Shown one piece after another: positions 1 through 63,134 of a DNA stretch of 64,000 bases. A model generated the notes under the pieces. The model was not told where the DNA came from. It did no database searches and was given only the letters and a program-made list of their open reading frames with translations. The stretch is from Entophlyctis helioformis (lineage: Eukaryota > Chytridiomycota > Chytridiomycetes > Chytridiales > Chytriomycetaceae). Numbering within the stretch: position 1 is the first letter of the stretch; the number at the start of each line of letters is the position of its first letter. Location: assembly GCA_025526915.1 (NCBI GenBank), contig JAHLKH010000002.1:124001-188000 (forward strand), given 5' to 3'. The position numbers and the translations under genes are program-made.

Positions 1-2001
1 GCTTGACATCTTCCTGGGAGAGATGGACAACATCAGCGCCTTGCTTGCCTTGCCGGGCCTTGGGGTGAACAAGAATGCAGTCGCGATGTAGCCAGCAGCT
101 GCATTGCAATCCAATCAAACACAGAATGCCAAGTCAGTCATACAGCACACACCAAGCAATGTCATGCATGTGTACCTTGTGGTGGTTGTGCCAACAGCTG
201 TGCTGCTGTCAATGGCATGTAGGGATGGACAGTCAGTAGAGTGTTGTGCATGCAAATGCATCTGTGCCACCATGCTATGACCAGTCAAACAAAATCTTGC
301 CTCTGCGCTGGTGCATCACCTGATGGGCTGCTGTGACTGGGTGGGGATGTGGTCTCACCAACAGAGCTTCCTGATTCATCGTGGTGGACAAAAACGCCAA
401 AGGCGTTCAGGAAGCTCTTGGTGAGAGCCACACCACCATCCAGCAACAACAGATCCTTGCAGTATGCGTCCTTGATTGCATTTGCAAATGCAACTGCCTT
501 GTCGCGGTCATGGAGGTGGGCACAGTAGTCGACCGGCTTGATGCCTGCCTTTCTGGCCGCGGCCTCGACAAACTTGTTGATGAACTTGACAGCGGCAGGT
601 AGACCTTCCATGTCATGGGAGTGGCAATGTGCATTAGTCATCATCACAACATGGATGGCAAGCAAGAGCAGAGTCATGCAATGAACATACCGCGACCGTA
701 GCAATCATGATAGTCATTCTTGGCCATGGAGGCAGCCAGCTGACATGCCAGGGGGAAGTTGTACAACCGTAAGGCTGCTGCAGTAGATGCAGCACCACTG
801 TAGTTGTACAATTGGACCTGGCTGACACGTCCCTTCTGCATGCATGTCAGGATGACAGGGCAGCATCCAGTACAATGCACAACCAGGTCCGAGTCCCCAG
901 CAATGACAGCCATTGGCATGCCATTGCTGGGATGCAGGTTGTCAGCCATTGATCATAAACAACAGATACCATGGTGATGAATACCTTGGCTCGCGTGCAT
1001 AGAGGGCAGCCTTGCGGGCGATGCAGACATCCGACTCGTTGTCACACTGATGGACAGTGTGTTGCGATGATGGGCCGAGGATTGCCGCGATTGCCTCAGC
1101 AATGTTCTTCTTGTCTGACCGTGTAAGAGTGAAGGAGCCAAGTAGTGCCTTTCTCTCCTTCCTGTAGCATCAACTAAAAGTTAGAATCATGTGTATGAAG
1201 CACAAAGAGGCAGACATACCAAGACAAACGTCCAGACCGTCCATGCTTGCGGCGCCAGTAGATGGATCGCTGGATGGCGGCCACTGATTGAAGTACTCGA
1301 AGAGCACGGCTGCTATATGCACGCTTGATTCCCGTCTCGGCAAGCCTGCCATCAACATGGAACTGTAGGACCCGCCCGTCACCGACCGACTTGAGAAACG
1401 TCTTGAGAACAGGTGCAACGATTGTCACCCACTCATCAACAGACGACGGCCGGTGGAAAGCGGCCAGCCCACGTAGCGCTCCATAGAAGATGCTCAGGGC
1501 ATCAACATGTATGACACTGGATGCACTCATGTGTGGTTGCAGCAGTGGTGGTGGTCGTGGCGGTTGTGGTGGCAGTTGTATCCGAGGTGCCGGTAGAAGG
1601 GCTGGCCGCTGATGCAGAGGAGTTGGCAGCGGATACAGCCGACGGAAAGCTGGTGGCCGCAGAGGTGCCGTCAGAAGTGACGGCAGATGGGGCAGCAGAG
1701 GTGGTGGTGGCAGCAGAGGAGGCAGTGGCAACCGTAGGTGTCGAAACGGCGATGCTGGCAGCTGTGGCTGCCTTGGATACAAATCCAGCAGTGATGGTGG
1801 CTGCAGCAGCGACGGTCGAGGAGTTGCACTGGTGTCGTCCACAGCGATGTCGTCGACGTCCATGTCGTCGATGGCAGGGTCGCCGTGTTGCTTGACCTCT
1901 CCGAGTACCGTGGAAAGTGCGTCGGACAAGCTTGCACCGTCGCCGAACACGATGACGTAGCCAAACTCCTTGAGGAGTCGCAGCCAGTCAGGGACTCCCA
2001 T
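1..2001 (-). CDS. FEN1/XPG-family nuclease, copy 1 (3' end beyond window)
   Basis: Structure-specific nuclease-like gene reading leftward off the window. The start at 2001 is chosen because it gives an XPG-type N-terminus, MGVPDWLRLLKEFG. Exons: 2001-1220, 1161-985, 926-691 and 604 to about 300, with a further coding piece near 1-80. FEN/XPG acidic motifs appear in order: IHVDALSIFYG, FHVDGRLAETGIKR, DNESDVCIARKA, AGDSDLVVHC and NDYHDCYGRG. The last is followed across an intron by a GLPAAVKFI helix-hairpin-like segment. A proline/leucine-rich insert of roughly 100 residues lies between the MGV helix and the first aspartate motif; it is absent from copy 2 (53917-62525). Every visible splice junction keeps frame, so this copy looks intact as far as it is seen. 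Substrate is unknown. Location in a dispersed family beside a Fanzor gene suggests a mobile-element passenger (inference). Confidence 0.72.
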
Positions 2002-45193: not shown

Positions 45194-48100
45194 ATGTATT
45201 CGACCGCCGCCATTCTCTCAGCCGATCAGCCCAGTTACGGTACTGCCGGTCCGCACGATCGCACCAGTGTAGCCACCGACGTCCCTCTCATTCCGGCGAA
45301 TGCTGCTGCGTCTACAGCAACGGCTTCCCGTGGCGTTGGCCGCCACGATGCCACCAACGCAGCCAAATCCCCTTTTCTTCTCAAGCACGTCCACGACGGC
45401 CCTTTGCGCACGGATGTGCCGCAGCATGCAGAGGCTGCTGCAGACACGTCGCGAGCCAGGGGCAGCGGTCAACATCAAGACGCCTCCACCACCGATCGCT
45501 CGTACCTGCACTGCGCAGGGAATGCCAACCACGAGCCCCGCACGCTTCATGGTGAGCAGCCGTGCTATTGCGTCTTGTCTGTCCGCACCTCTGCACGTCT
45601 GCCCGCCTATGGATGCATTGCATCTCCATCCCTGTCATCGCATAAATCTCGCCCCTGCATCCACTCCCATCACCCCCCACGCTCGTCCAGCAACTCCCTC
45701 CATCCCCTTGACGCTCCCTCTCTGGTGCTCCTCTGTCTCAATCACTCGTCGCATCACTCGACACCTACTGACGGCGATCACCTGTTTGCGGTGGCAAGCA
45801 GCTCCCTCCTCCTCCTCCTCTTCGTCGTCGTCGTCGCCAAGTATCACCAAGCGTGCCCGCATCTCGGCACAAGGCCAGAACCCGGCCATCGAGATTGCCA
45901 TGCCAACCGAGCCGACACTCGCGGTGTATCCGAGTGCCACGCCAAACACGTCTGCCACGGCTGCAACGTCTCTTGAAGCCGCCTTCGCAAGTCAGCGAAA
46001 GGAGACGACCAAGGACAGTCAGTCGTCTTCCAGCACCAACGACAGCGATGATGCCAGCCAGCCGAACCTTCCGACGCCGCCCTGTGATGCCGTCAACCTC
46101 GCACTGGCTGCCGCTCGCCAGCTGCCATCGCCACTCGCGTCACAGCCATGCTCATCGCGCGATCTTGCTGTCCAAGGCGATACCAGCGGCGATGGACAGT
46201 CGCGCATCCTCTCTGCAAGCGATCAGTTCCCAACACCAGTCGAATCTGACACCAACATGCAGAACCAGGCCGGCGTTCAGCCGGGCGACGACATCATGGC
46301 CGCCACCCAAGCCGAGATTCAGTCTGCCCAGGACGAGCAGCACGCGTGCCAAAGCAAGCAGGACACGCCACACAGAGACTGCTCGGCCGTTGTGGACCAG
46401 CCTAGCATGCACCAGCAGATCAGCCCAGTGCATGGCGTCAACGACATTGATGCGCACGGTCTCGACCAGGCGAACAACTACCTTTTCCTTGCACGTGACG
46501 GCAACGATGGATTCGGAACGCTTGCCAACCAGAGTCGGGGCGGGTTCCGCGTCCCAGCCGCACAGCTCTTTGTGGACACGGCTCGCGAGGCGTTGCTGCC
46601 GCCATCGTCGGGCATATCTGCGTTCTCTGCCAGCCCCATGCCGACTGCCATGAGCACGCCGTCCAACCATCTCCACATGTGCGTCACGCCCAACATGCCA
46701 GACGGATCGGCCACCCCCACATCGTCGCTTGCACCCATGTCAACCCTGCATTCGCCTGTCCAAGCCAGGAGCGCCAGCGCCAGTGCCAAAAAGGGTGGTG
46801 CTGCCAAGCGCGAGCGGCCCAAGACGCACACACCGCGTCCGGCCAACTCGTTTATTCTCTACCGACGCGAGAAACACATTGAGATCATGGCCCAGTACAA
46901 GGGCTCCAAGACGCTCAACAACAATGTCATTTCCAAGATCGTCGCGGATATGTGGCGGTCCGAGGTGCCCGAGATCAAGGCGCGGTATGCCGCCATGGCT
47001 GACGAAGAGAAGCGCGCGCACATGGCCAAGTACCCGGATTACAAGTACCGTCCAAGAAAGAATGCCAAAAAGGCTGGCGTCGCCGTGGAAGCTTGCAAGG
47101 ATGCTGCTTCGGCTGCTGGCGACGACGAGTTGGACATGCCGTCGCCGACTGGCATGCATGCATCGCGATTGAGCCCAAGCCATGGACGCACCGGCCACAT
47201 CGCGCCAGTTTTCCAGGCCAATAGCGGCAGCCGCGGGTCGGAGCTGCGTCCAGGAGCGTGTGGCAGTGTTGCCAGTGACAGCCAGATGGCCATTGCGCGC
47301 CACCACTATGTGTCGCAGCAGCTGTCGGCACAAGGCACGTCCATCTCGCCACAAGACAGCTTCTATGGCAGCATGACGCACATGGGCTTGAGCGAGATGA
47401 GCATGCTTGGGGTCCAGGACGTTGGCATGATGGACAATATCATGGGCCAGCAGATGGTTGCGATTCCAAACGGCAAGAACGGTCTCGGCGTCGGCATCCT
47501 GGCACATGGCGCCAGCATGCACAGCATGGCATCGAGCAGCGGAGGCAGCAACCGTACGAACAGCAACAGCAACAGCACCAGGAGCAATGCCCGCCGCAGC
47601 ATGCAGAATGCAAATGGCGTCGCCAGCAGCGATGGCAACAGCAGCGGCGCAGGCGGCAGTGGCAGCGGCAGCGGCGACAGCATGGATCAGGACCAGCACA
47701 TGAGCATGCACTACCAAGGCAGCCAGATGATACAGCAAACGATTCTGATCTCATCGGGACAGATGGCTGGCGGGGCGTGTGTGTCGTCTGCCGATCCCCG
47801 GGCGTACTCTGCGTTTGGCGCGCCGTGGGGACACATCATGGCACACCAGAAGCCCATTCACGGCCAGTCGTTTGCGCATCTCGGAGGGCACAGCTACGCG
47901 CACGCCAACAATGCCGCTGACATTGCGAATGCAGCCGCCGCAGCGATTCGCCAGCACAATCCGGCAAGCCAGATGCAAATGTCCCACGATCAACAGCACT
48001 CGTTCTTTTCGTCTGTATCTCGCCAGCACCAGCAACAAGAGCACGAGCACGAGCAGCAGCAGCAGCCCGACCAGCAGAACCAGCACAACAATGATCAGTA

Positions 48101-48836
48101 CCAGCCAGCCAAGCAACCCGGCATGAACCAGGCAAGGCAAGGACAGAAGCGGCTGTTTGACGACGACCAGCGGCAACAACACATGATCGCCATGCACCCG
48201 AGCCATATGGATCTCGGCCACGTTGCCATGGAGCCATCTTCCATGTTTGATCCGCAGACGGGACAAGTGTATCATATCCAGCACGCGCATCCAGGCCACC
48301 GCCATCTGGCAGCCATTGCATCCTCGGCCAATCTCGACGGCATGGCCACATTTGTGCCGGCCGGCGGCATGTTTGCTGGAATGGGCGGCAGTTTCCACAT
48401 GGTGCACAGCAACGACCCGTCGCGTTCAGGATCAGCCATGGCAGTTGCAGTCGCTGCAGCCAACGCGCCCGCCGGCAACAGCTCATTGACGCCTGAGCGT
48501 CCCTCGGGCACAGGCAGTGCCTCGATGGCGGCTCCAGCTGGCCTCTCGAGTATGTCTGGGTCGCTCGCCATGGCGACTGGCCACGCCGGCGGGCCGCCGC
48601 TGACATTTGAAGTCGTGTCGTCGGACGAGTTTATCATGTCACCCATCTACGATCCGACTGGAAATGCCGAGTTTCTGAGCCATGTATGGCCCATTGGCGC
48701 TGGGCAAGGCGGCGGCAGCACAGGCGTCGGCGTCGGCGTGGGCCTCATTCCCGCGGGAGCATCGATGCCAGGCACGTGGATGAACATGGGCGGTGCGTGG
48801 GATCTTGCGGCCCTCGACAACAAGCCGCTTGCGTAG
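45194..48836 (+). CDS. MATA-type HMG-box transcription factor
   Basis: Sequence-specific HMG-box DNA-binding protein of the fungal mating-type/Ste11/SRY class. Two exons (45194-45551 and 45799-48836) splice in frame to 1,131 residues. The HMG box lies at about residues 463-540: RPANSFILYRREKHIEIMAQ, then NVISKIVADMWRSEVPEIKA, then AHMAKYPDYKYRPRKNAKK. The NSFILYR and KYRPR ends are typical of MATA_HMG rather than HMGB proteins. The remainder is low complexity: a Ser run after the splice, Met/Gly/Ser/Asn-rich stretches, and His-Gln-rich HQQQEHEHEQQQQPDQQNQ near 48030. It is far longer than most mating-type HMG proteins (200-400 residues) and there is no flanking evidence of a mating locus, so a general sexual or environmental regulator is as likely. 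Confidence 0.85.
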
Positions 48837-48879
48837 CTCTAAATCCTGAGGGGTGGGCAATTCGGCGAGGGGTGCGAGT

Positions 48880-49109
48880 GAAATGAAATTTGGCTTCATT
48901 TCGGCCCGATATTCATACAATTACCAAGGATTTTGGAATTGATTCGTCGCAAGAGGCGTCGAATAGATGCCCGCATATCACACGATGGAAGGTTCGAGTC
49001 AGCAACGAGCATGCGACGACAAGCGGGCGAGGCACATCCACATGCATGAGGGTCTTACCTTTATCGTTAGAAAAAGTGACCCGTTAGGTCGATCGGGAGG
49101 TGCCCCGAT
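48880..49109 (-). other. Structured region downstream of the Fanzor gene; candidate guide-RNA locus
   Basis: Between the convergent stops of the HMG and Fanzor genes are three inverted repeats: 48880-48887/48895-48902 (8-bp perfect stem, 7-nt loop, rich in A/T), 48942-48950/48956-48964 (9 bp with one T-T mismatch, 5-nt loop), and 49092-49097/49104-49109 (6-bp perfect GC-rich stem, 6-nt loop) which directly abuts the Fanzor stop codon. TnpB and Fanzor guide RNAs are made from the 3' end of the nuclease gene and adjoining noncoding DNA, so this is where one would be expected. The first hairpin may instead belong to HMG-gene 3'-end formation. Confidence 0.35.
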
Positions 49110-49603
49110 TCAAAGTTGGTAGTCAAACAAGTCACTGTGTGGGATGCAGGTCAAGTGACTTGAGGGCAGGCTGTCTGCGTGTTGGTCGCAGCTGGTCGGC
49201 GGATGGACCGTGTCTTGAACGCCACAGGACGGCAGGCTGATCTGGTCCCATGAGGCCACATGCGACTTGAAGTGTTTCCGCGTTTGAGGCTGTGGGACAA
49301 CAGACGGAGCATTTCGTGCACGCCACTGGATGAATAGATGCATTGCCTCGATGTCTGCAAGGTACTCTGTCGTGGCTGGATTGCTGTCAGGTTTTGCGTG
49401 TGTCAAGTAGAGCGGCCGGTGTCCAAAGAGCAGATGCCCCAGTGCGACCATCCCGATGTTGGTGGCTCCAAGCACATCGCGGTGGTAGACGGTCGTGCAT
49501 GGTATGCACTCGTAGCGTCGCAGGTTGGTGCGGTTCTTGTATGGGATCCGCTGCTTGCACTGCGGGCACATCTGGCTGGTCAGGTTCTCGTTGCAGCGGT
49601 AGA

Positions 49604-49677
<74 letters not shown>

Positions 49678-52600
49678 TGTGGTGTGTGGTGTGTGTGTGG
49701 TGTGTGTGTGGTCAGTTGGTGCACAGATGGATAGATGGATGGATGGATGGACAGCATGGCATCAGACGCACATAGGCATATCCAGACGACCGCAGATGCC
49801 TGATGAGAAACTTCTCAAACACAGCGTGCCGGCCACCTTGGCCTGTAAAGTCGATGCCAAATGCCCAGACAACGGGAATGTTGTCCTCTGTCGACTTTGT
49901 TCGGTCGACAGGGAGGCCTTGAGATGCAGCAGATGCGCGCTTTCCAGTGGTCGATCCTGCCAGCTTCATGATGCCCTCAAGAGCGTTTCCGCGAATAGAC
50001 GTGCGGCTGCTGCGCATGGTGAACCGCTTGGCCTTGACCTTCTGTGGAATGCCATGCCATGCCATGCCATCCAGTGCAATCAGCATGCGATCAAGCAGCA
50101 TGGCGGCCATGTCAATGGGCATCCAGAAACAGAGAAACCGTACCCGTGCATTCAGGAATGGCGTGCAGTACGCATGGCAGCGCAGATCCCAAAAGGCTCT
50201 CTCGCCAGGCTTGACGTTTGGATCGGCATGCTTTGCTGTCTTGAATGCAATGGCCGCCTGGATGTCCGTTGCCTTGGCATATCGATTGTTGAGCCTGGCA
50301 CAATAGACAGGCACTGTGAGTTGATCTGGTCAAGAGTGCACGTAGCAGAGTCATTGCATGCATACCACCGCTGAAAGTCACGCTCAGCTTGAAACATGCC
50401 AGAGGAGAGCACATAGTTGGACTCGAGCGTATACGAAAAGTCTCTGAGATCAACCAAGATACTGGATGCGCCATACAGGTACCGCTGGCCCCAATCAAAG
50501 CTGACAACGCGAACAGTCTGGTAGCCTTGGTCAGTGAACAGATTGTTGGCATTGATGATGTCGGGCAGTCGCTGCGAGGCGTAAAAGTTGCGCTTGCCCT
50601 GTCATGCCATGAATGAGTGAGGGATGTGCAATGCATGTGCACCAATGTGCGAGTTTAGCATGCAAGTGGCTTACAGGATTGGGCGTTTTGGCTTGGTGGC
50701 TGATGGGTTGGCTGGATTGGCGGCTGTGGATGGCATGTCAGTCAGTGTGGACAACAAGAACGCGTCTGGATTGATACAGCAACTCACATTCGCCGTTAAT
50801 GTAATCGGGCTCGCCATCAGCCTCGTCAACAAGCCACGGCTGCTCGCCTGAAGACGCCGCGTTGGGATCTGCAGATCAAGGCGGCAGTCAGAATCAATGT
50901 GTGCACCAAGCATTCAGCACGCCACATACTGCGAGGTGACTCTGGACGGTTTGTGCGGCAGTCCAGTGCCAGCTGGTAGATGCTGTATCCATCCGTCATG
51001 ATGCTGCCAAGTAGGATCGCCTTGGTGGTCTCGCTGGACGCACGGCCTTGATCGCAGCCTGATATGCTTCTCGCGCTCCTTGCCACCCAGACTCTGCTCA
51101 TCGGCCTCTTGTGTTGCCTTGGCTGTGGCCTTGGTAACCGCGTCCATCTCATCTTTGGCTTCTGAAGGTGTCTGGAAGCGACCTTTCTTGGGGCGGAGAC
51201 CTGGGAGAAGGATGTCAAAGATGCAAACCTCACGGCTTGCGCTGAATGGCATCCTTGGGATCATGCTATTGGGGCAACTTAAGAGGCTGGACCTGGGCAT
51301 CCTTTGGTAGCCCTTTGGAGGAGAAAAGTGGCAGAGTCAGCCATCAAAATTTGTGGTACGTACACAGTGGGCACTATACAGGGCCAGTGCGACCAACCGA
51401 GTGCAGCCAGAAGCTGTAGTCTCAATGCCTGCAAAGCAGGATCCTGATTGCCACGGATGCGCTCATCCTTTGCCCTCATCACCGCCCAAAAGAGGGTGGT
51501 CTCAGTAATGAGGACAAACGGATCGCGGCCTGCAGGCTGCGGACACAACTTGAGGGATGAGCCTGCGAGATCACACAACTGCTTGAACTTGCCGGCCTCT
51601 GACAGCGACTTGTTGCGCACGACCACCGTGAGCCTGTGCAGTGCTTGTGGGATCTTGACAACGCGTCCGTCTTGTCTGGTTGACAGTGGCGTGCCAGACG
51701 TGGCGTCCCCAGTGGCTGTATCCATTGCCTTGGCAAATTCCGCTGCCTTGTCAGCAGATATACCAGGAATCAGTCGGTGGATTGCCCAGTCAATGAGCAT
51801 CGACTGGTGGGTCATGAAGTGCACAGCAAGCATGCCACAGATGCCCCGTGCCAGATTTTTGTAGATGTCGTTCCAAGCAGCTGCACACAAACTGTCGTCA
51901 AGCCTGCCAGGCAAAACGGCATGCATCGTGCTTGCGTCCATGTGCACAATAGCTGACAGCAATGAGCCGCCTGCGTCGCGTCCATCTTGGCTGCCCGCGC
52001 CACACCAGCCGCATCTTGGTCATGCTGTCCCGGATCATCTGCTGTGTCCATTCGCGGTTGATGATCATCTGCATGACCGTCACAATCCACGAGTGGGCCA
52101 CATGCTTTGTCGCCCGCGGCATGACCGACTCCTGACCGGTGAGAATGTAGCCCAGGTATCGCAGAAGCATTTGACAGCTCCCTCGCCACTAGAGGTGCTG
52201 TTTGTGAGCACCTTGAGCAGATCATTTGCCGATGGTACTGCCCGTTGTAGTGGTGGCTCGATGGCTGGTGGTTGGGCATCGGTGCTGCTGGATGCGGCGG
52301 CTACTGCTGCTGGTGCTGCTGTTGCTACTGCTGGTGCTGTGTCGTCGGTGAAGGTGCAGATCTTGACCATCGTGCCGCCTCAAGTCTCACCAAGTCGCCA
52401 TAGTGAGCAATGTCGGTGTTGCTGCAGAGCGGGCTTCGCCGTACATGCGCCGGGCATTAACTGGCCATCTGAGGACGCATCCAGCGGCGTAGAGCCACGC
52501 GCTCTTGTCCTTGAAGTGATCAGGATCAATAAAGACATATTCCATCTCACCATTCCTCCTGGCCTCCATGACGCAGAACTTGAGTGGCAGCGGTGCATCT

Positions 52601-53770
52601 GGGTCAAGTGCGACGAGCTCTTCAACGATGGCGCCGATCATAGTGATGCATGCATGCCGCACGTCGGCTGTGTATCGGTACACGCCATTGAAGATGCTTT
52701 CTGAGACCGAACCGCGGGTCTGTGTTGCCGGCGCCGTCTTGGCCTGGCGTCCAAAATACTTTGCAAGCATTGGATCTCCAGAGAGCATTTCCTGTATGTA
52801 GCACAAGTCAACATACACAAAGCCAGACATGCAGAGCGACATGGCAATCCAAACTCATACCTCCATTTTGACAATCTGCTCAGGGCAATCGTATGTGCTC
52901 TCCACCGGCCTTGCCTCATTGCCATGGATGGCAGCAGCAGCCGTCATGACTGGCAATGCCATCATGCGGTGGATCTTTTCAAGCATCTGCTCTATCGCCG
53001 ATCTTTCACCACGCTCATATCTGTCAAAGAACGCACCAGTCAGCACACACACTCAAGGCACATGCCATGCCATATGTCACTTACGCCTGTGTCTCGTCCT
53101 CAGATGGAACCTGGCGGGCTTGCCTGCTCGCATCCTTCTTGTGCTCCTGGATGAACTTCTTGGTCTTGGCCTTCTCAGCTTGCTCAGCTCGCTCCTTATC
53201 ACGCTCAGCCTGCATGGCCGGTGTGACCAGGTATGGATCCTGCTGTGGTTGAATGCAATGTTAGGCATGCATCTTGAATGTGCACAAGATGCTCGCAATC
53301 ACAAGCCTGCAGTTCAACTCACAGTCGTCCTTGTGTCTTGAAGCACACCAATGTGAAAGACCTTGTCGCAATCTGTGCCTCTATCATCTGTGGCTCGAGG
53401 TGGCAGCAGCATCTTGCATGGTTTTGGTGGCTTGACGGCCTGTTGAGTGGAAGGATAAGCAATTGCAGCAAGCCGTCACATGCAAACAGAGCCAGCAAAT
53501 GCAAAGACGCACTGGTACTCGATTGATAATCGACTGCAGCATCTGCTTTGCTTGGTCATAACACTTGCCAAATTCTGACGCTCGGAAATCAGCATGCCTG
53601 ACATCCGTTGGGTTTGTCAGGGCGTTGAGCGTCTTTATGGCCGTTTTGCAAATATCGGCAACAGCTTCTGGGGTCGCGATCCGTGTGCTCCTTCTGAGCG
53701 GCTGCTTTGTCTTTTTACCCTTGACTGTCACACAAATGCCGTGATCAGTGGTGAATACACAATGCCACAC
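49110..53770 (-). CDS. Fanzor (eukaryotic TnpB-like) RNA-guided endonuclease
   Basis: Predicted programmable DNA nuclease with a split RuvC domain. Last exon 49604-49110: IYRCNENLTSQMCPQC (RuvC-II Glu plus first zinc pair), RRYECIPCTTVYHRDVLGAT (second zinc pair and RuvC-III Asp), ending FDYQL. Exon 50313-49772 contains VVWAFGIDFTGQGGRH and FEKFLIRHLRSSGYAY, splicing in frame to it. Exon 50598-50366 contains RuvC-I, RVVSFDWGQRYLYGASS (Asp codon 50494-50496). Exon near 51230-50940 has ILLGSIMTDGYSIYQLALD, matching the TDG segment of Fanzor1 proteins. Helical upstream exons reach at least 53770; the start is not determined. No clean frame joins the 50366/50313 junction or the region near 51060, so indels or decay are possible. 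The catalytic residues D, E, D and all four cysteines are present. It lies directly downstream of the FEN/XPG-like gene on the same strand. Confidence 0.78.
49606..49711. repeat. GT microsatellite in a Fanzor intron
   Basis: About 105 bp of (GT)n with GGTGTG interruptions on the plus strand. On the coding strand it is a (CA)n tract that ends at the CACACAG acceptor of the last Fanzor exon, separating the main RuvC part from the RuvC-II/zinc-ribbon exon. A short ATGG repeat follows (49725-49750). Confidence 0.9.
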
Positions 53771-55084
53771 TGTGTCAACCCGTGCAGAGCGAACCTGGCG
53801 TTTTTAGACGCCTGAAAGATGCGCATTTCAAGCCTGGATACTTCTTGAGCCGCTCATTCAGTCTTGCTATCACCTTCTGCTCGCCCAGTAATGGATCAAG
53901 TCGGCAGCATTGAAGATCAGCAACAGCATGCAGTGGACAGCCAAGACACGCATCCAAGCCTCGCAAAACCCACCAATGCGTGATAAAGAATCTTGCCAGC
54001 CGGGCTGAGCTTTGCATATGCTTCTTTAGCGATACGCCAGTCATGCACAGCCTGCAGCAGCTGCTTGCTTGCATTCTCGCAGATATCAGCAAGGATGTCG
54101 CGGCCGTTGAGAATGTCATCGGCAAGGAGGTCTGCCGTGCATCGGAGAGCGCAGCTAAACACGACACGGCAGCCATTGAGCATGACAAAAACGTCGTCCA
54201 GTTGCCTTGTGTTGACAATGTGCTTGGCGAGCACCATGACTTCATCCCGTGTAACGTGCCAAACCGCACCGCTGGCATTGCCCTTCAGCTGCTGTGCCGT
54301 GTGGCTCAAGCAGCAGTCACTGCCGACCATGCATGCAGAGGCAGATCTGCCAGTGGCATCCATCAGAGTCAGTGCCATGAGAATCCTCCAGATATCACAA
54401 GCACACCTACTTTTTTCGAGCCGAGGCGGTCCTGTTGGCAGTCCTGCTGTTGCCATTGGATGATGCATGCATTCATGTCAATGCCATGCTGTCCAAGTGC
54501 ATCCAAAGCAAGACTTACAGCGGTATCATTTGAGCAAAAACATCCCCATAACAACCATGGCTTTGGTCTGTGAACTCTCCAATATCCGCTCCAGTTTCGT
54601 CACGGTCGAGAAACACCGCGAAGGCATTGCTGAACGATTGAGCAAGAGGCTTGCCGCCGATCTTGTACATCTGCAACATAAATGAGGCCTTGAAGACGTC
54701 CACAAACATCCTGGCAATGTCTGGGTCTTGCAGGTGTTGACAGAACTCTGCGACAGTGATCCCTGCCCATGTTGCCTCAAAACGAATGCATGCCATAATG
54801 CACTTTGCAGCCGTGACAATCCCTTGCAAGTCATCATTGCAGCATCACGAGTAAGTCAAGGTCGCAGCGCATGGCATCCAAAATTGCAAAGCAGGCAAGC
54901 CAACATACCAATCTCATCACAATGAAAATAGTCATTTCTCGCTGCGGCTGCCGCCAACCGGCAGATGTCAAGAATCTCTGGCAAGTCAAAGGCGGCTGCA
55001 ATAGATGCTACACCTGGGTGGTTGTACGATCTCATCTGTGCAATCTGTCTGCCGCGCATTTGCAGCAGCAGGACAGGGCAATAC

Positions 55085-55089
55085 CCCGC
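55085..55089. repeat. Target-site duplication, left copy (CCCGC)
   Basis: CCCGC directly precedes the TGTAAC start of the left LTR; the matching copy is at 61740-61744 after the right LTR. Five base pairs is the usual duplication length for Ty3/gypsy elements. Confidence 0.92.
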
Positions 55090-55346
55090 TGTAACACTGG
55101 GCCTCCAGGCGGACTTGCCGGCTGGTTGCAGGGGCAGTGAGTATGCACGCGAGGAAGGGCGGGCAGACGACTTCATTGAGACATGAGCACGGACCTGGTT
55201 GCAGGGGCAGTGAGTATGCACGCGAGGAAGGGCGGGCAGACGACTGCAAGAACGGGGGCAACCAGAGCGGGGGACGCGGCCGGGCGATGTCTGTCCGGTC
55301 ACGTGGGTCACGTGGATCACGTGACCGCGACCGAGCATCCGTTACA
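55090..55346 (-). repeat. 3' LTR (left)
   Basis: 257 bp, TGTAACACTGG to CATCCGTTACA on the plus strand. It carries a 46-bp segment in tandem (GTTGCAGGGGCAGTGAGTAT...), separated by 27 bp, which makes it 73 bp longer than the right LTR. Near the outer end are three CACGTG palindromes. Confidence 0.95.
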
Positions 55347-55354
55347 CTCCCCCC
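55347..55354 (-). promoter_or_regulatory. Polypurine tract
   Basis: Coding-strand GGGGGGAG immediately before the 3' LTR, the expected position of the plus-strand primer for reverse transcription. Confidence 0.8.
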
Positions 55355-55399
55355 AGCGTAGACAGCCACTCATAAGAAAGAAGAGTGGATGAACAGCGA

Positions 55400-57460
55400 C
55401 TAAGAGGATGCAGGGGCGTTGCACACACGAGAGGCAGAAGTGCGGGCAACGATGGACGCATAGGACACAGGACGGGGAACCGTGCGCTCAGAGCGGCGAG
55501 GTGGGGCGGGATGGTTGAGAGGGGGGAGAAAAGAGAGGGAGAAGGAAGGAGGAGAAGAGGGAGGAGGGAGAGGAGGGAAAGATGGAGAGAGAGAGGGAGA
55601 TGCGGGTGCAGCAGGTGCGATCGGCTCGTCAGCCGGAGCAGGTGCCGCGGGCGTGGCTGCCGCTGGAGCAGGGGCCACTGGTGCAGGAGCAGGCGCAGTG
55701 CGCTTGCGGCGAGAGGGCTTGGATGCCTTGGGCTGCGTGGGAGCGGGCGCCGCGGCGGGAGCAGGAGCAGCCGGTGCAGGAGCAGCCGGAGCAGGGGCCG
55801 CGCGCGTGGGCTGAGCCGGTTTGGACGCCTTGCCCTTAGGCGCCTTGGTCGGTCGAGCGTGGAACGCCTTGACGAGGTCCTGGGCCTTGCGCATGTCGGC
55901 GGCTGGGACCCATGTGTTGTCGTCGGCTGGATAACCGACCCACTTGACCAGATACTCGATCTTGCCGCGATAAGTGCGCGAGTCAACGATCCGCTCGACC
56001 TCGTAGTTGTCCGACGTGCCGTCGTCGGCGTGGTACTCGGGGTCCGGCCGGGAGGGCACATCCTTGCGGCTGGTGGGCGCAGACAGAGGGTCGACATACG
56101 GGCAGATCCGGTCAGCATGGAACACGTTGTGGACGCGGTGCAGCGAGGCAGGCAGCGCGAGCGTGTAGTTGAGGCCAGATTCGCCAGAGTCCAGGCTGGT
56201 GATGGCAAAGGGGCCGAGCCACTTGGCGGCCGTGAGCGGCGGGCGGTGCGAGTCCGCCGGCCAGGAGATGCCCTCGGCGTTGAGGAGCACCATGTCGCCG
56301 ACCTTGTACGCAGGGTGACGGCGGCGACGCTTGTTTGCCTGAACGGCCATGGCTGCCTGGGCTTTGCGCCGATTCAGAATGGCCGAGTCGCGAGCAGCAG
56401 CCATGTCCAGCAGCAGGTCGCGGGCCGCGGCAGATGGTGCCAGGGCTGGCTCGGACGGGAAGGACCGCGGGTGGCGGCCAAACGCCAGGAAGAAGGGTGC
56501 AAAGCCAGACGACGCAGACGGCGCGCAGTTGAGGCCAAAGCAGGTGGGACCGAGCAGCAGCGGCCAGTCAGAGCCGTGGTAATCGGCCGCCTTGGCGAGC
56601 GCATCCTTGATGGTGCGGATGCTGCGTTCGGCCAAGCCGTCAGTCTGCTGGTGGCGAGCCGTGCTGAGGTTCTGCTTGATCCGGGCAGCGGTGCAGAGGC
56701 TCGACCAGAAAGCCGACAACCAGCGGGCGTCGCGGTCCGAGACGATGTCGACAGGGAAGCCCTTGCCCGAGCAGACCCAGCGAGTCAGGAAGAGCTCGGC
56801 CAGCTCCTGGGCCGACGACGAGCGGCGGCACGGGAACGCGTCGCAGAGACCGGACAGGCGATCGACCACAACCAGAGCAGCATCAAACGCATCGTCTTGT
56901 CCGCCCGCGGGCAGGAACATGACGTCCATGGCGACGCTCGAGAAGCAGTCGTCCGGGATCGCGAGTGGATGCAGCAGGCCGTCAGGCCGGTGGTTGGGCG
57001 TGCGGTGGCGCTGGCACACGTCGCATGAGGCGACATAGGCAGCAATGTCCTCAGACATTCTGGGCCAGAAGTACCGGTTCGACAAGCGGCTGGTGGTCCG
57101 CTGACGTCCCTGGTGCGCACCAAAGGGAGAGTCGTGGTAGTGGGCGAGCAGATCCGCGCGCAGAGACTGCGGCACATACAAGCGGTTGCCTTTGTACCAC
57201 CACGCACCATCCAAGCACTCCATGTGCACTACGACCTTGCGGTCGGCCGGCGTGGCTGACGACGGGTCGGCCTTCCAGCCAGGCAGTCTGGAGGCAAATG
57301 GGTCGGCCGGCAACGCCGCACGCACGTCTTTCGCCCAGTCAGAGTCAGTGCGCAGATTGGCAGCACGGATCGGGACAGGCGAGCGACAGTTTGTGCAGAG
57401 AGGGGCCTTTGAGGGATCGCGGGACAGCAGATCGGCCAGCGAGTTGAGCTCGCCAGGCAC
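55400..57460 (-). CDS. Retrotransposon integrase with chromodomain
   Basis: C-terminal part of pol, open for 686 codons. It begins with the end of RNase H (PGELNSLADLLSRDPS). The integrase HHCC zinc finger is in HYHDSPFGAHQGRQRT and CDVCQRH; the catalytic triad residues lie in AMDVMF, VSDRDARWLSAFW and DGLAERSIRTIKDAL. A GPY-like segment (KWLGPFAITSL) precedes the chromodomain YEVERIVDSRTYRGKIEYLV...VGYPADDNTW (about 55905-56010), which in chromoviruses targets insertion to modified histones. After it is an unusual tail of about 170 residues rich in Ala and Pro ending near 55400. Host-domain targeting is inferred from family knowledge. Confidence 0.92.
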   Translation of the reverse strand: MPGELNSLADLLSRDPSKAPLCTNCRSPVPIRAANLRTDSDWAKDVRAALPADPFASRLPGWKADPSSATPADRKVVVHMECLDGAWWYKGNRLYVPQSLRADLLAHYHDSPFGAHQGRQRTTSRLSNRYFWPRMSEDIAAYVASCDVCQRHRTPNHRPDGLLHPLAIPDDCFSSVAMDVMFLPAGGQDDAFDAALVVVDRLSGLCDAFPCRRSSSAQELAELFLTRWVCSGKGFPVDIVSDRDARWLSAFWSSLCTAARIKQNLSTARHQQTDGLAERSIRTIKDALAKAADYHGSDWPLLLGPTCFGLNCAPSASSGFAPFFLAFGRHPRSFPSEPALAPSAAARDLLLDMAAARDSAILNRRKAQAAMAVQANKRRRRHPAYKVGDMVLLNAEGISWPADSHRPPLTAAKWLGPFAITSLDSGESGLNYTLALPASLHRVHNVFHADRICPYVDPLSAPTSRKDVPSRPDPEYHADDGTSDNYEVERIVDSRTYRGKIEYLVKWVGYPADDNTWVPAADMRKAQDLVKAFHARPTKAPKGKASKPAQPTRAAPAPAAPAPAAPAPAAAPAPTQPKASKPSRRKRTAPAPAPVAPAPAAATPAAPAPADEPIAPAAPASPSLSPSFPPLPPPSSPPSFSLSFLPPLNHPAPPRRSERTVPRPVSYASIVARTSASRVCNAPASS

Positions 57461-57464
57461 ATAC

Positions 57465-59119
57465 TCATGGATGTATCAAACTCCTGCAGAGACAGGACCC
57501 ATCGAGCCTGCCGATCCGACAGGTGGGGCTGCGTGGCCAACCAGACCAGCGCCTTGTGGTCAGTGTGCGTGACAGAGCGCACACTGGACAGCAGATGACG
57601 GAAACGCGAGAAAACTCCACGATGGCGAGCAACTCGCGTTCATGGGTTGGATAGTTCATCTCGGCGGGCTAAGCTTACGTGACCAGCAGGCCACCAGCTT
57701 CTCGCCATCTGGGTGGATCTGCGACAGGTAGCCGGCAATGACGTAGTTGCTGGCATCAGTGTAGACATGCGTTTCCAGAGCCGGGTCAAAGAACCGCAGC
57801 TCGGTCGCTTTCAGCACTGCCTGACGCAGGTCTTCCACAGCCTGCTTTTGAGCAGGGCCCCATCCCACTTGGCATTCTTGGCTAGTAGCTTGTAAAGTGG
57901 CAGACACATGGTGGCGTACGCCTTTGCAGGGTTCGGCCCACCAATGAATGACTTTAACCACACAAGCTTACCTAGCCAAGTTGCCAGAGTGGTTGTGTTG
58001 GAGATGTGGGGGCAGCTGCCATGTCCTGCAAGTGCTTTGGCGCAATGGAATAACCAGTGGGCGAAAGCACGTGACCGCAGAACTCAATGTCCTGCTGCAG
58101 GATCATGCACTTAGATGGCTTAATGTACAATTGAGCCTTCAGTAGCAGCTTGAGAACAGTGTGTAGGTGTTTGATATGCTCCTTGTACGTCGCGCTGTAG
58201 ATGTAGATGTCGTCCATGTACACCGAGACGCACGTGCCCAGCAGCTCATTGAGCGTCGACTGGATGGCCTGTGTAAACACAGCCGGAGCATTGGTCAGCC
58301 CAAAAGGCATGACCGTGAACTCAAAGTGACCAAACTGGGTGGAGAACGCAGTTTTCCACTGGTCCTCCGCCTTAACACGGATGTTAAGGAAGCCCTCGCG
58401 GATGTCAAGCATCGAGCGGAAGGGTTTGTTTGCCAAGTTATCACGGAGGGTCTCAATCTCCGGGATCGCACTGTGGAACTTCACCGAGATGTTGTTCAAG
58501 CCGCGGTAGTCAATGACCAGCCGCAGCGAACCATCCTTCTTGCGGACAAAGAGCGTGCCGGCGCCCAAAGGCGATGACGAGCGGCGGATGTAACCTTTGG
58601 TGTACCACTCGTCCAGCTGCTTCTTGAGCGCTACGGATGCATCCTGGTTCAGTTCTTGAGGCCACGACGCGGCGGCAGCTGCGCATCCTTAATGAAAGGG
58701 ATCGCGATCTCGAACTCCGAGTCGTGCGCACGGCCTTGCGGCGGGCAGCAGACCTCGTAGTAGTCGATGAATGCCTTCTGCGTCTCCTCGTCCGGGCAGA
58801 CTGGAAGGTAGGGGTACTTCTCCTTCAGCTCGTCCGGGGTGAGGCCGTTTGCAGCCGCGACGCGAAGGCGCGCATCGGCAGCTGCCTCACGGTCCTCAGG
58901 CAGGTCATCCACATAGACCAGCTCCGCATACTCGTCAGGATGGGCGAGGATATCCGACATGGTAACCACGATGTCAGAGTGCGGCCGGTTGTGGGGTGCA
59001 GCAGACGGCGGAGCGTCTTCGTGCTGCCAGATGTGGTGCACATCGGGGCGCGACTCGGTTGAGAAGCGGAAAACCCGCGACGGAAGTTGAATGATGCCTT
59101 CGCGGTGGTGCGCAGCCAC
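57465..59119 (-). pseudogene. Retrotransposon pol: linker, reverse transcriptase and RNase H, frame-broken
   Basis: The coding continues gag-protease but in shifted frames. A linker with YAELVYVDDLPEDREAAADA (59119-58649) passes, with a frame break near 58655, into reverse transcriptase (58640-57972). RT motifs: RKKDGSLRLVIDYRGLN, SMLDIREGFLNIRV, MPFGLTNAPAVF and the catalytic SVYMDDIYIYS (58209-58220). Frame changes near 57985, 57862, 57665 and 57600 interrupt the connection/RNase H part, where THVYTDASNYVIAGYLS, NYPTHERELLAIV and VTHTDHKALVW are recognisable. The breaks are described, not repaired, here. With LTRs nearly identical, this number of breaks is more than expected from age alone. 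Confidence 0.85.
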
Positions 59120-61464
59120 GGCATGCCCAGGATGACATCGTCCACACCGTCATAGACAAGGAACCGCACTCTGCCAACAGCATCTGTTCTGTCAGCGAGC
59201 GTGAGGTAGACCTCTGAATCTAGCCTCTGCAAGTTGCCGTTGGCAAACTCGAGAGTCACCGCCTGCCGGGTGAACGGCCGGGCAGCGGCGAGCAGGCCGT
59301 TGGCATCCAACCAACGGCGAGCCACTAGATTCGTGCTGCTGCCAGTGTCCACCAGGACGCTGGCGCTGCGATTGTCCAGGAACACCGGGAAGGTGCACCG
59401 GTTCTCTGTGATGGGCTTCACGGGAGCCAGGTGCCCCTCCTTTAGCCGCGATGGCGGCATCACAGGACAAACAGGGTGATCAGGGGCCACAGAGGGCAAC
59501 CTTTTATTCGCATCAGCCACAACTGGACTACTCTTCTTCATCTGCGTCGCTGTACTGGGTCCCGTCGTCTGAGAACGACGAGACGGTTTCGAGCGACCGC
59601 GAGCCGGAGCCATTGCTGGTGCGCCGTCGTCACGGGCAGGGACCGATGGAGGTTCGGTGTCAGCATTGGGCTTACGCACGGCCGCAGGCTTAGCCGCCGA
59701 AGCGTGCTTAGCCGCAGGAGCAGGAGGAGCCAGAGGGGGCGAGCGAACGTACCCGGGTGCCTTGGCCTTTGCCGCGATGCGCCCGACCTTAGAGTGGGGC
59801 GGGCGCTGGCTAGGCGATCGGCTGGCCTGGTCGGCTGTCGCAGCGGGCGAGGCGGCCTTACGCGTTTCAGATGCGCTGTTGTTGCCAGAGGGCGCAGGAG
59901 TGGCCTTGGGCGATGAGGAGCTCCAAGAACGCGGCGACGCGGCGGCTGTCTTGCCAGAGCTGGGCGTCGACTTGGCGTCTTGGGCCTTGTGAGCGTTGGC
60001 GAGGGCAGTGGCAATTGCAATGTCACGCTCGTGTTCCTCCGCGCCTGAGTGTCGCTTGATGAACGCCTCGCGGAGGGCCGAGTAGGTCGTGAGCGAATCC
60101 CATGCCTCGGGCTTGTCCTTGATGCGCGTGCGGAGGAATGTGAGCCTCTCCGCCTCCGTAAGCTGGGCGTCATCGAACAGCCGCTCGGCTGCATGCAGCC
60201 AATCCTGCGGGACACGGCCATGGCACTCAGTGGGCGCAAAGTCACGCTCCAGCTTCTGGCGAGCCTGGCCTCGGACTCGTTCCGGGGCACTGTGGCGCGG
60301 CACGAGGTCCGCAAGGAAGTGGGCGAGCGTCGGGGGCGGATCGTCTGTCTTGAGCGACTTGAACCAGGCGGTGGCGAATACACGGGCCTCGCCTGTGAGG
60401 AGCGTCAAGAGGGTTGCACCAATGTCGCTCAGGGGGATCGCGTCCACGCCGGTTGCCTTGCAGGCGCTCTTGTAGGCCATCTCGATGGCCAGGACGAACG
60501 GCTCGAGGCTCTCGCGAGTGGCGTTCCAGTTGACCGTCAGCTGCGAGCCCTTGACCATGACAAGGCCGTTGAACGGCACCTGTCTGCCAAGCGATTCCGA
60601 GAACACCTTGGCCAAGTTTGGTGCACGGGCTTCCACGGCTGCTGGCAGGCGAGCATCCACCGAGGATCCCGACGCGTGGGCCGGACGCGAGTCCACCGAG
60701 GACCCAAGCGCCTGGACCGGATGCTCCGCAAGCAGGGTCGCCGTGGCTGAGGCCTGCGCCAACGCAGCGTTTGCCGTTTTGGTGGCCTTGGCGACGGCAT
60801 CCGAGAAGACCTGCTCCAGTGCAATCACGGATTCCGACGTGTTGGCGACGCTCTTCTGCAGGCCCCGTATGGCCTCTGAGTTGGCCTCGACAGAGTCAAA
60901 GAGTGCCACCAGGCGTTGATGGTGGAGCTGGGTGGCGTTGGAGTAGGCCTCAGCCTGCCTGGCGGCCATGTCGCGGTCCGACTGCAGCTGAAGCCGCAGA
61001 TCGTCGATGGCAGTGTGGGCGGCGGCCGCAGATGATGTGGTCGCCTTGAGTGCTCGGCTGGTGTCTGACGCCCCCGTGTGGAGGCGCACGAGTTCGTAGA
61101 ACATGTGCTCTCCAGTGATGGTGAAGGGCCGCCTGGGGGCACTCCCAGCACCGGGCTGGACGGCCGGCGTGCTGGAGAGGAACGCCTCTTGGCGCCGACC
61201 AGCGTCTGCGTCGTGGCGGCCCAACAGATCGGCCGAGGAGTGGCGGCGCGCTGGTGAGGCGCCAAAAGACGCGCCCAGAGCAGAGTCGGCCATCAAGACG
61301 GACGACGTACCCACAGGGTCGGGGCGGTGCTGGGACCTTGGGGGGGTGGCGTCGATGAACGAGCGGGCCGTATCGAACGAGGCCTCGCCGAGGAGGTCCT
61401 GGTCAGTGCCCAAGGGGGCGGCGGCCGAGCGAGCCGCGGGCTGGGGCGAGCGCTCGACGGCCAT
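58825..61464 (-). CDS. Retrotransposon Gag-protease
   Basis: Start at 61464 (MAVERSPQPAARSAAAPLG), about 90 bp inside the 5' LTR. The N-terminal 150 residues are Ser/Ala/Arg rich, then a helical region and a retrotransposon Gag domain (ATAWFKSLKTDDPPPTLAHF, QDWLHAAERLFDDAQLTEAE, then LTTYSALREAFIKRH). A basic Pro/Ser-rich region takes the place where a CCHC zinc knuckle is normally found; no such motif is seen. The aspartic protease motif SVLVDTGSSTNLVARRWLD is at about residue 700 (59337-59354), with VDDVILGMPWLR marking its second conserved strand. Conserved coding leaves this frame near 59085; the remaining codons to 58825 appear to be out of frame. Confidence 0.9.
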   Translation of the reverse strand: MAVERSPQPAARSAAAPLGTDQDLLGEASFDTARSFIDATPPRSQHRPDPVGTSSVLMADSALGASFGASPARRHSSADLLGRHDADAGRRQEAFLSSTPAVQPGAGSAPRRPFTITGEHMFYELVRLHTGASDTSRALKATTSSAAAAHTAIDDLRLQLQSDRDMAARQAEAYSNATQLHHQRLVALFDSVEANSEAIRGLQKSVANTSESVIALEQVFSDAVAKATKTANAALAQASATATLLAEHPVQALGSSVDSRPAHASGSSVDARLPAAVEARAPNLAKVFSESLGRQVPFNGLVMVKGSQLTVNWNATRESLEPFVLAIEMAYKSACKATGVDAIPLSDIGATLLTLLTGEARVFATAWFKSLKTDDPPPTLAHFLADLVPRHSAPERVRGQARQKLERDFAPTECHGRVPQDWLHAAERLFDDAQLTEAERLTFLRTRIKDKPEAWDSLTTYSALREAFIKRHSGAEEHERDIAIATALANAHKAQDAKSTPSSGKTAAASPRSWSSSSPKATPAPSGNNSASETRKAASPAATADQASRSPSQRPPHSKVGRIAAKAKAPGYVRSPPLAPPAPAAKHASAAKPAAVRKPNADTEPPSVPARDDGAPAMAPARGRSKPSRRSQTTGPSTATQMKKSSPVVADANKRLPSVAPDHPVCPVMPPSRLKEGHLAPVKPITENRCTFPVFLDNRSASVLVDTGSSTNLVARRWLDANGLLAAARPFTRQAVTLEFANGNLQRLDSEVYLTLADRTDAVGRVRFLVYDGVDDVILGMPWLRTTAKASFNFRRGFSASQPSRAPMCTTSGSTKTLRRLLHPTTGRTLTSWLPCRISSPILTSMRSWSMWMTCLRTVRQLPMRAFASRLQTASPRTS

Positions 61465-61547
61465 CCAAAGGAAAAAAAAAACGGAAAAACGACGGAAAAA
61501 TCGATCGACGGCGGCGGGGAACGGCGGCCGACGGCGTCGAGAGGGCG

Positions 61548-61555
61548 GTTCTTGC
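61548..61555 (-). promoter_or_regulatory. Putative self-priming primer-binding site
   Basis: Coding-strand GCAAGAAC directly abuts the 5' LTR and does not resemble the 3' end of a tRNA (no TGG start). Its exact 8-base complement, GTTCTTGC on the coding strand, lies inside the LTR at 61646-61639, 93 bp from the LTR start, where R could begin. This is the arrangement of Tf1-type self-primed elements. Confidence 0.5.
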
Positions 61556-61739
61556 TGTAACACTGGGCCTCCAGGCGGACTTGCCGGCTGGTTGCAGGGG
61601 CAGTGAGTATGCACGCGAGGAAGGGCGGGCAGACGACTGCAAGAACGGGGGCAACCAGAGCGGGGGACGCGGCCGGGCGATGTCTGTCCGGTCACGTGGG
61701 TCACGTGGATCACGTGACCGCGACCGAGCATCCATTACA
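61556..61739 (-). repeat. 5' LTR (right)
   Basis: 184 bp, TGTAACACTGG to CATCCATTACA on the plus strand. Apart from lacking the 73-bp duplication of the left LTR, I find a single base difference near the outer end. It contains three CACGTG palindromes (about 61693-61718). Confidence 0.95.
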
Positions 61740-61744
61740 CCCGC
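61740..61744. repeat. Target-site duplication, right copy (CCCGC)
   Basis: Partner of 55085-55089. Confidence 0.92.
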
Positions 61745-62525
61745 GCAATGAAAGATGAGGTCGGTATCACCACTGATGACGACGACCGGCACATTGCTGT
61801 CAAGAAAGGCGCATGAGCCATGGATTGGAGAGGCATGCAGAAGACCAACCAACCTTGCTTCGCGCACACGGCATGCAATGCAAACATCCGCCTCGTTTTT
61901 ACAAAGGCACACAGACGACCCTTCCCCAAAGTATCCAAGAAGACCCCCAATGGCCCCACAGATTGCCGCCTTACGCTTGCATGTCAATGGAAACGCCCAC
62001 TGGAGTGACTGGATCTCGTCCCTGGAAGGGCACTCAGTCAGCACGGCATGCAAATCAACAACAGCAAGTGGCATACTTTGTGAGCCTGTTGCCTTTCTGG
62101 TCTGCTTTTCGCTTGGCCACCATTGTCTGGATCGACAATGCTGCTTCCAAATTTACCCGTGCCCGCTCAGTGCGGACAGCCTTGATATTGGTGTTGAGAA
62201 GCGAGCCATCGACATGGAGCCGGACCATGTGGAACTTTCCAATTGATGCTGCGAGGCTGGCAATGAGCGGCTCGAGTGTCGGCGTCCAGTTTTCCTCTGG
62301 CTGTGCCAGCAGTATTGGTGCTGCTTTGTAGATATCGCCGGCAAAAAGACTGAGAACGTCCACATGCACAATGCATTGGATGGGCGGACGCTCTGTGTTG
62401 TGCTGCTGCCGTGTTTGATGGGGCTGTACCACGACCTGAATTGCACCCGAGAGAGGGTTTGTGGGATCAAGGGTTTTGCTACCACCTGCTTTGTCGATGG
62501 GTGCAGTCGCGCCGACGACTCCCAT

Positions 62526-62910
62526 GCGTGTTGGGCGTGCTTGTTGGTTTGTTGTTGCGTGTTGTTGTGTGTCGTGGCAAGTCGCGATCTGGTGTTTGTT
62601 TGCATTGACATGCTCTGATTGTTTGGCAGCAATGCATGGAGCACTGGTCTGTGTGTGGAATGGCATGCTCCTCAGAGAGAGAGAGCGTTGCACATGACTA
62701 TGCATTCGCCCCTCTTTATTCATGGAGGACACACACGCACCGCCCAGCGAGACAGCAGGCGCTGCTGCCTGCACCACTGCCGTTGCTGTGCTCGCATCGC
62801 GCAGTGTCAGCACTTCTCAAGGGCTCTCTAGATCGACCAATCACAGCGATTCCACCAGGATTGACCAATCACAGCGATTCCACCGGAAGTTGACCAATCA
62901 GGAATATTCC
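62526..62910. promoter_or_regulatory. 5' region of copy 2 with three CCAAT boxes
   Basis: 62783-62808 is identical to 2521-2546. CCAAT cores are at 62837-62841, 62865-62869 and 62894-62898 (spacing 28 and 29 bp), in the same GACCAATCA context as copy 1. The rest (62526-62780) is A/C-rich leader-like sequence on the coding strand, with no other feature seen. Beyond 62910 similarity to copy 1 ends, which marks the likely 5' boundary of the shared element. Confidence 0.6.
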
Positions 62911-63134
62911 ACCAGGGGTAATGGTATGAGAACCGGGCCCTTTCCTCTCATCAAACTACAGCGAGCCCGCGCCACCCACGACAGCCCACAGCCAGCTCGA
63001 CAGCCCTCACACACCCAACCCATCCAGCGCACTGGCGGGCCCATCCAACGACCTCTACGACGCCCTGCTCCTCCACTCGGAGCCCTTATCGCCGACCCCC
63101 ATAACGTAACCACCCTTATCAGTCGCTCGTCACC

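Follow-up and report, generated by a model that had tools for sequence, protein, structure and literature searches.

The window analysed here, a stretch of 64,000 nucleotides from the chytrid Entophlyctis helioformis (assembly GCA_025526915.1, contig JAHLKH010000002.1, positions 124,001 to 188,000), holds a dead copy of a Fanzor-type transposon. An intact relative elsewhere in the genome encodes a predicted protein of 1,785 residues in which a FEN/XPG-like part may be fused to an RNA-guided nuclease of Fanzor type, the best explanation we have and one to which we give about an even chance. The element is a high-copy chytrid transposon, with well over a hundred locations in the assembly. A first-pass annotation of the window had described a Fanzor nuclease gene on the minus strand at 49110-53770, and its motifs were recovered in the order claimed: FDWGQR (RuvC-I, 50482-50499), CNENLTS (RuvC-II, 49575-49595), CPQC (49557-49568), YECIPC (49497-49514) and HRDVLGAT (RuvC-III, 49461-49484), together with the TDG segment, which is present in the frame of exon 12. 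The span itself had to be revised, as the gene starts near 62525 and the motifs belong to the 3' part of a larger gene. A 6.65-kb gypsy element sits in exon 3, and the annotated span therefore holds exons 7-18 only.

The proposed kinship with Fanzor and TnpB was borne out by the Pfam profile Cas12f1-like_TNB (PF07282), which matches exon 18 in the window at E 2.7e-9 and the intact copy, L020, at E 1.7e-9 (38.1 bits against a cut-off of 26.3). The Fanzor/TnpB motif of 2013, D-X(125,275)-[TS][TS]XX-[C4 zinc finger]-X(5,50)-RD (PMC3627910), is found in L020 as D1441, 188 residues, T1630 S1631, the cysteines C1634, C1637, C1654 and C1657, five residues, and R1663 D1664. A Fanzor fingerprint, the RuvC-II glutamate displaced to six residues upstream of the zinc finger (PMC10711439), is present as ENLTSQMC, together with HRD, in every one of the 21 copies of exon 18 that could be read. 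The gene is also carried by a transposable element in the manner of Fanzors, with terminal inverted repeats (TIRs) of 23 bp and a target-site duplication (TSD) of 8 bp. By its motifs and the Pfam match, the C-terminus is assigned to the TnpB/Fanzor type.

In L020 (C139:32297-42296), 18 exons are in frame, all splice borders are GT..AG, and the 1,785-residue reading frame has only its terminal stop. The 18 predicted exons and 17 introns of 55-112 nt were read by eye from landmarks; the model of an automatic gene finder had over-split the gene, and was replaced by these landmark-based exons, which were checked on copies (20 close copies and later three of other subfamilies). The public gene model P0011 splices exons 1-4 identically to the 18-exon model. 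The reading frame has been under selection: when L020 is compared with the five divergent copies L025, L026, L027, L028 and L030, the overall ratio of non-synonymous to synonymous substitution (dN/dS) is 0.45-0.53, although in some individual short exons (13, 14 and 17, for instance) the proportion of non-synonymous differences (pN) sometimes exceeds that of synonymous ones (pS). A multi-exon structure and an unusually long N-terminus had both been suggested from the window, and both hold, the N-terminus being far longer than first thought.

This N-terminus is likely to be a FEN/XPG-like nuclease domain. The motifs VVHVD, LHVDG, NEADVCIA, VISGDTDL and RNDYF were read by eye in exons 1-4, and their acidic residues stand in what we take to be the order of the XPG/FEN nucleases. 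The order D, D, E-x-D, D-x-D, D is kept in an alignment of nine lineages (A5), of which the other eight are 31-66% identical to L020 and one is without exons 2-4; judging from the host's XPG and EXO1, with which they were compared visually, these are presumably the catalytic positions of XPG/FEN enzymes. Lineages holding those exons share the acidic positions as [HL][VI]D, HVDG, E[AS]D, D[ST]D and [NST]D, and the subfamily variants (LVD or HID for HVD, ESD for EAD, SD or TD for ND) leave the acidic residues unmoved. The Pfam family XPG_I_2, whose proteins are Asteroid-type, is matched at E<=1 by eight of the nine lineages (best E 2.7e-4), and two public gene models match it below the cut-off (P0011, E 0.0038; P0012, E 1.9e-4). 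One alignment of profiles with a host nuclease passes through the same DSD and ND positions.

Several results weigh against the reading as a fusion of a FEN/XPG-like and an RNA-guided part. All XPG_I_2 scores listed (14.8-21.5 bits) are below the Pfam cut-off of 24.2, and with L020 alone unrelated families score equally (DUF7742, E 0.017; FAD_binding_4, 0.020; XPG_I_2, 0.021). No XPG family appeared in the first N-terminal Pfam scan or in the full-length scan, and searches of PDB sequences with the N-terminus returned nothing or unrelated chains. In profile comparisons, the E values against the host's XPG and EXO1 were 0.076 and 0.12, little better than the 0.34 of an unrelated C-terminal control. 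Two AlphaFold models failed, with a predicted local distance difference test (pLDDT) of 33.2 and 37.0, and Foldseek found no match at E<=0.001 with the second of them. On the C-terminal side, DPG in RuvC-I is described as near exclusive to Fanzors (PMC10711439), but 20 of the 24 readable exon-15 copies have DWG, and the remaining four have no DWG in the frame read; with the glutamate displaced but DWG for DPG, the protein is of TnpB/Fanzor type with one of the two fingerprints of 2023. Only L020 is intact among the nine copies of the close subfamily that span the element (L009, L010, L011, L013, L015, L017, L018, L020 and the window copy), the other eight each having at least one frameshift or stop. 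That its 18 exons form one mRNA is predicted from the open frame. Finally, the consensus fold of the 3' end, the candidate source of a guide RNA, is not significant over five lengths (alifold z -1.5 to +0.4).

The sub-threshold Pfam scores and the lack of support from PDB sequences, profile comparison and Foldseek would suit a protein of the usual Fanzor type whose long N-terminus is specific to the lineage and resembles XPG/FEN by chance or as the remnant of a decayed, inactive domain, and Fanzor N-termini do vary (PMC3627910). However, XPG_I_2 is matched by all lineages of the alignment except the one without exons 2-4, and the acidic positions are fixed in lineages only 33-40% identical to L020. 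This explanation appears unlikely to us.

The genome-wide evidence on the predicted fusion comes from searches of the 29.57-Mb E. helioformis assembly (482 contigs), in which chitin synthase and radial-spoke genes are present, as expected of a zoosporic fungus. The C-terminal exon has at least 150 matches (150 of 293 candidates scored), the 14 closest other copies among the matches scored being 92-96% identical. The FEN-like exon 3 has at least 149 (153 candidates, 150 scored), a count in which a few places were entered as two pieces. These counts, and those of the inverted ends below, are of places in the assembly and not haploid copy numbers, because some contigs duplicate each other: C67 and C297 have the same flanks on both sides, and C13/C356 and C18/C272 are nearly the same. 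For at least 86 of the 149 exon 3 matches, a scored C-terminal exon lies downstream in the same orientation, 3-16 kb away; this is a lower bound because only 150 of the 293 C-terminal candidates were scored. The median distance is 5,975 bp, and 72 of the 86 lie within 5-6.8 kb. At the same distance upstream, no scored C-terminal exon was found on the same strand. Six of the exon 3 matches have one on the opposite strand. Linked exons of both ends occur in many subfamilies.

Such linkage could also be expected of two neighbouring, unfused genes that travel together, one FEN-like (about exons 1-5) and one of Fanzor type. The public gene models that were found are fragments, P0011 stops soon after exon 4, and the fusion of exons 1-18 is a prediction from sequence. 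In contrast, L020 is open across all 18 exons with matching phases, and summed dS exceeds dN in all five far comparisons despite the short exons mentioned above. We hold two separate genes to be distinctly unlikely.

Among 5.8 billion proteins, a full-length search that scored 7,985 candidates, restricted to similar length, gave no relatives at E<=0.001 in a database whose share of eukaryotes is uncertain. In the same collection and at the same threshold, the C-terminal profile found 10 proteins and the N-terminal profile three, all named E. helioformis. The 13 public gene models of the element found are anonymous fragments of 168-397 residues, and the full gene has therefore likely been overlooked so far.

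The ends of the transposon are sharp when copies are compared, and its 23-bp TIRs are imperfect. At up to two mismatches, the 5' TIR GGCCCGGTTCTCATACCATTACC has 76 matches in the genome and the 3' TIR GGTAATTGTATGAATATCGGGCC, searched with variants permitted at three places, has 140; reversed controls have none. Elements measure 7.2-7.4 kb, with a larger form of about 9 kb. Across 40 elements with both ends, the 8-bp flanks agree at 214 of 320 positions, compared to 110.7 +/- 8.9 for shuffled pairings, none of which reached 214 in 2000 trials. Lengths of 4-7, 10 and 12 bp show no excess, and 9 and 11 bp give weaker signals. When repeated 5' flanks were dropped (n=35), 11 duplications were perfect (8/8), 18 agreed at 7/8 or better and the other 17 were poorer. 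The duplicated 8-mer tends to start with C/A/G-A-A-A. No strong motif resembling a transposon-adjacent motif was seen upstream of the duplication in the 35 flanks, the most skewed position being a G (20/35) four bases before it, and the start of the duplication is A-rich. The window copy has no matching duplication (3/8).

Exon 3 lies within 9 kb of 63 of the 76 5' ends and not of the other 13, mostly at about 1.1-1.4 kb or 2.25-2.5 kb. The latter class is the 9-kb form, which has an extra stretch between the 5' TIR and exon 1 (L123, L124 and L125), and two open reading frames (ORFs) scanned in this stretch match no Pfam family at E below 0.1. An internal-deletion derivative of 1.05 kb (L055, C436:7860-8911) retains both TIRs and part of exons 17-18, with a duplication of 7/8 by eye. 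Copies L017 and L018 agree completely over 485 bp of 5' flank but differ in their 3' flanks and lack a matching duplication, which may reflect recombination or an assembly chimera, and the last 20 bp of this 5' flank are the same on C150. The 5' TIR is followed by a repeated unit that contains ATTGG, the inverse of CCAAT, and whose copies are possibly promoter elements.

Pfam identified no transposase domain in the 1,785-residue protein, in part of a divergent exon 11 or in the two upstream ORFs of the 9-kb form, yet the ends and duplications are sharp, as they would be if the N-terminal nuclease cut the inverted ends for transposition while the RuvC part had an auxiliary or a targeting role. 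We hold this alternative to be highly improbable. Enzymes of the FEN/XPG class are structure-specific, and they are not known to make target duplications. The single-ORF Fanzor element SPu-1 also shows that such an element can do without a transposase of its own (PMC3627910).

Subfamilies of the element have a mosaic make-up. Agreement between L026 and L027 is 90-99% over exons 1-9, falls to 50-71% over exons 10-13 and is again 80-97% thereafter. Between L020 and four of the divergent copies L025-L031, introns are much better conserved than the four-fold sites of exons 1-9 and 11-12 (p 6e-5 to 8e-13); in L026, for example, the counts are 4/106 for introns 11-12 versus 78/203 for exons 11-12 (p 8e-13). 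Exons 13-18 show no such excess at four-fold sites, with exons 12-18 pooled it is seen at p<0.01 in four of seven copies, and the close copies L009, L011 and L013 do not show it. Stronger constraint on introns as such was ruled out as the sole account, because the pattern fails for exons 13-18. Within exon 10 of L020, an internal tract is nearly identical to L025/L026 while the flanking introns match the close copies, and this tract appears to be a trace of conversion between copies. One may speculate that these patterns stem from exchange between copies by conversion or recombination, perhaps set off by breaks that the element directs at itself.

On the best explanation, and by analogy with Fanzor, TnpB and SpuFz1 (PMC10432273), the C-terminal RuvC/zinc-ribbon part would bind RNA of the element's 3' end and flank and, so loaded, cut matching unoccupied sites. 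The N-terminal domain might then trim flaps or strands at the overhangs of the RuvC break, which would favour repair from a sister copy and so copy the element back or into the site. Insertion with 8-bp duplications would likely be the work of an unlinked transposase. Going further, the protein could be a two-nuclease machine in one polypeptide, an RNA-guided RuvC cutter and a FEN/XPG end processor, that cuts unoccupied or sister sites and trims the ends, with repair copying the element or swapping modules between its copies. We offer this further reading tentatively and would place it on the unlikely side. Such a machine, if it exists, would account for the large number of copies, for the mosaic make-up of the subfamilies and for the sign of conversion within an exon. 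The 3' non-coding end of about 200 nt, which could supply the RNA, is 80-94% identical to L020 in seven divergent copies, and introns are equally conserved. Rfam gave no match for window 48700-49300, and no tRNA was found in L020.

The features of the window copy are collected in the table. This copy is dead, with a retrotransposon in exon 3 and indels in other exons. The inserted Ty3/gypsy element (6.65 kb, ends TG..CA, domains Integrase_H2C2 and Chromo) is young: its long terminal repeat (LTR) pieces are 99% identical to each other, and its 5-bp duplication, CCCGC, stands at 55085-55089 and 61740-61744. Compared with L013, exon 11 is 5 nt short and has nine stops in frame, exon 12 has 10 nt more (3 nt more in the intact copy) and lacks an AG at the mapped acceptor, and exon 14 is 1 nt short. 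The first-pass annotation had called the gene active or recently active. This fits the family, which has one intact copy, perfect 8-bp duplications at some copies and relatives at 92-96% identity over the C-terminal exon, but not the window copy with its retrotransposon and frameshifts.

Features of the Fanzor-type element in the window (all positions are window positions unless marked C2)
Feature	Position	Strand	Basis
Whole Fanzor-type transposon including gypsy insertion	48903..62939	-	sharp ends against other copies
5' TIR GGCCCGGTTCTCATACCATTACC, 23 bp	62917..62939 = C2:186917-186939	-	genome matches
3' TIR GGTAATTGTATGAATATCGGGCC, 23 bp	48903..48925 = C2:172903-172925	-	genome matches
Gene span	62525 down to 49110	-	alignment to intact copy L020
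Exon 1, first FEN-like acidic motifs (HVD, HVDG)	62077..62525	-	97.3% to L020 exon 1
Exon 2, NEADVCIA 61874-61897	61854..62021	-	copy comparison
Exon 3, first part, cut by LTR element	61740..61796	-	copy comparison
Ty3/gypsy chromodomain retrotransposon in exon 3	55090..61739	-	5-bp duplication, LTRs, domains
Exon 3, second part, RNDYF	54909..55089	-	copy comparison
Exon 4	54519..54822	-	98.7% to L020 exon 4
Exon 5	53974..54404	-	copy comparison
Exon 6	53795..53876	-	copy comparison
Exon 7	53514..53724	-	copy comparison
Exon 8	53323..53439	-	copy comparison
Exon 9	53085..53239	-	copy comparison
Exon 10	52861..53020	-	copy comparison
Exon 11, frame broken	51400..52791	-	copy comparison
Exon 12, length altered, no AG at mapped acceptor	50930..51311	-	copy comparison
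Exon 13	50788..50868	-	copy comparison
Exon 14, 1 nt short	50675..50723	-	copy comparison
Exon 15, RuvC-I FDWGQR 50482-50499	50366..50598	-	copy comparison
Exon 16 (aligned part)	50144..50284	-	copy comparison
Exon 17, WAFGIDFTG 49841-49867	49772..50041	-	copy comparison
Exon 18, displaced RuvC-II glutamate, zinc ribbon, RuvC-III	49110..49604	-	PF07282 E 2.7e-9
3' non-coding end, candidate guide-RNA scaffold	48903..49109	-	conservation among copies

Pieces of the same retrotransposon were seen in or beside copies L014, L021, L029 and L031. A second, divergent copy of the transposon has its exons 1-4 at window 363-1530 (minus strand), and a C-terminal exon lies beyond the window, at C2:118713-119075. 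The plus strand carries a long ORF at 45273-48836 in which, as judged by eye, one segment resembles an HMG box. A distance of 66 bp separates its stop from the element's 3' end, and a would-be guide would therefore read into the 3' region of this ORF.

Fanzors have been studied as compact RNA-guided cutters, and a giant form with a second nuclease of flap-processing type would couple cutting to end processing; if true, it would also be a ready-made natural fusion for editing work. As the family is large and diverse and has at least one intact copy, its function, guide RNA and role in spread are testable. No description of a Fanzor or TnpB fused to a flap endonuclease, XPG or PIN domain was met in the portions of the open-access literature that came up, which is weak evidence as most subscription papers lie outside it, and the matched passages of PMC11423790 hold nothing on a Fanzor-FEN fusion.

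Compared to known systems, the N-terminus resembles XPG, FEN, EXO1 and XPG_I_2 proteins in the order of its acidic motifs and in the weak XPG_I_2 match, and differs from these proteins in that XPG_N is not matched, that comparison with the profiles of the host XPG and EXO1 is not significant, and that a fusion to a Fanzor-type core is predicted. In the C-terminus, the placing of the RuvC-II glutamate six residues ahead of the zinc finger is shared with the displaced-glutamate TnpBs, including pro-Fanzors, which are prokaryotic; according to passages of the same source, the clade with DPG consists of Fanzors and pro-Fanzors, and the DWG of E. helioformis is as in the other displaced-glutamate clade (PMC10711439). 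Several exons are also known from the Fanzor1 genes of the Chlamydomonas elements CRe-1, -2 and -3, which have 5 or 10 and are carried by Helitrons, with a FEN-like domain not mentioned in the matched passages of PMC3627910. In setting, there is a likeness to SpuFz1 of SPu-1 from Spizellomyces punctatus, a Fanzor1 with RuvC and zinc ribbon in a many-copy inverted-repeat element of a chytrid host (PMC10432273, PMC3627910), and Ty3/gypsy insertions are present at some Spizellomyces Fanzor loci as well (PMC10432273). However, SPu-1 is about 2.1 kb long with a single ORF of 633 aa and a putative TA duplication (PMC3627910), whereas the E. helioformis element is 7.2-7.4 kb (about 9 kb in the larger form) and combines 18 predicted exons, a predicted protein of 1,785 aa, an 8-bp TSD, a probably FEN-like N-terminus and DWG.

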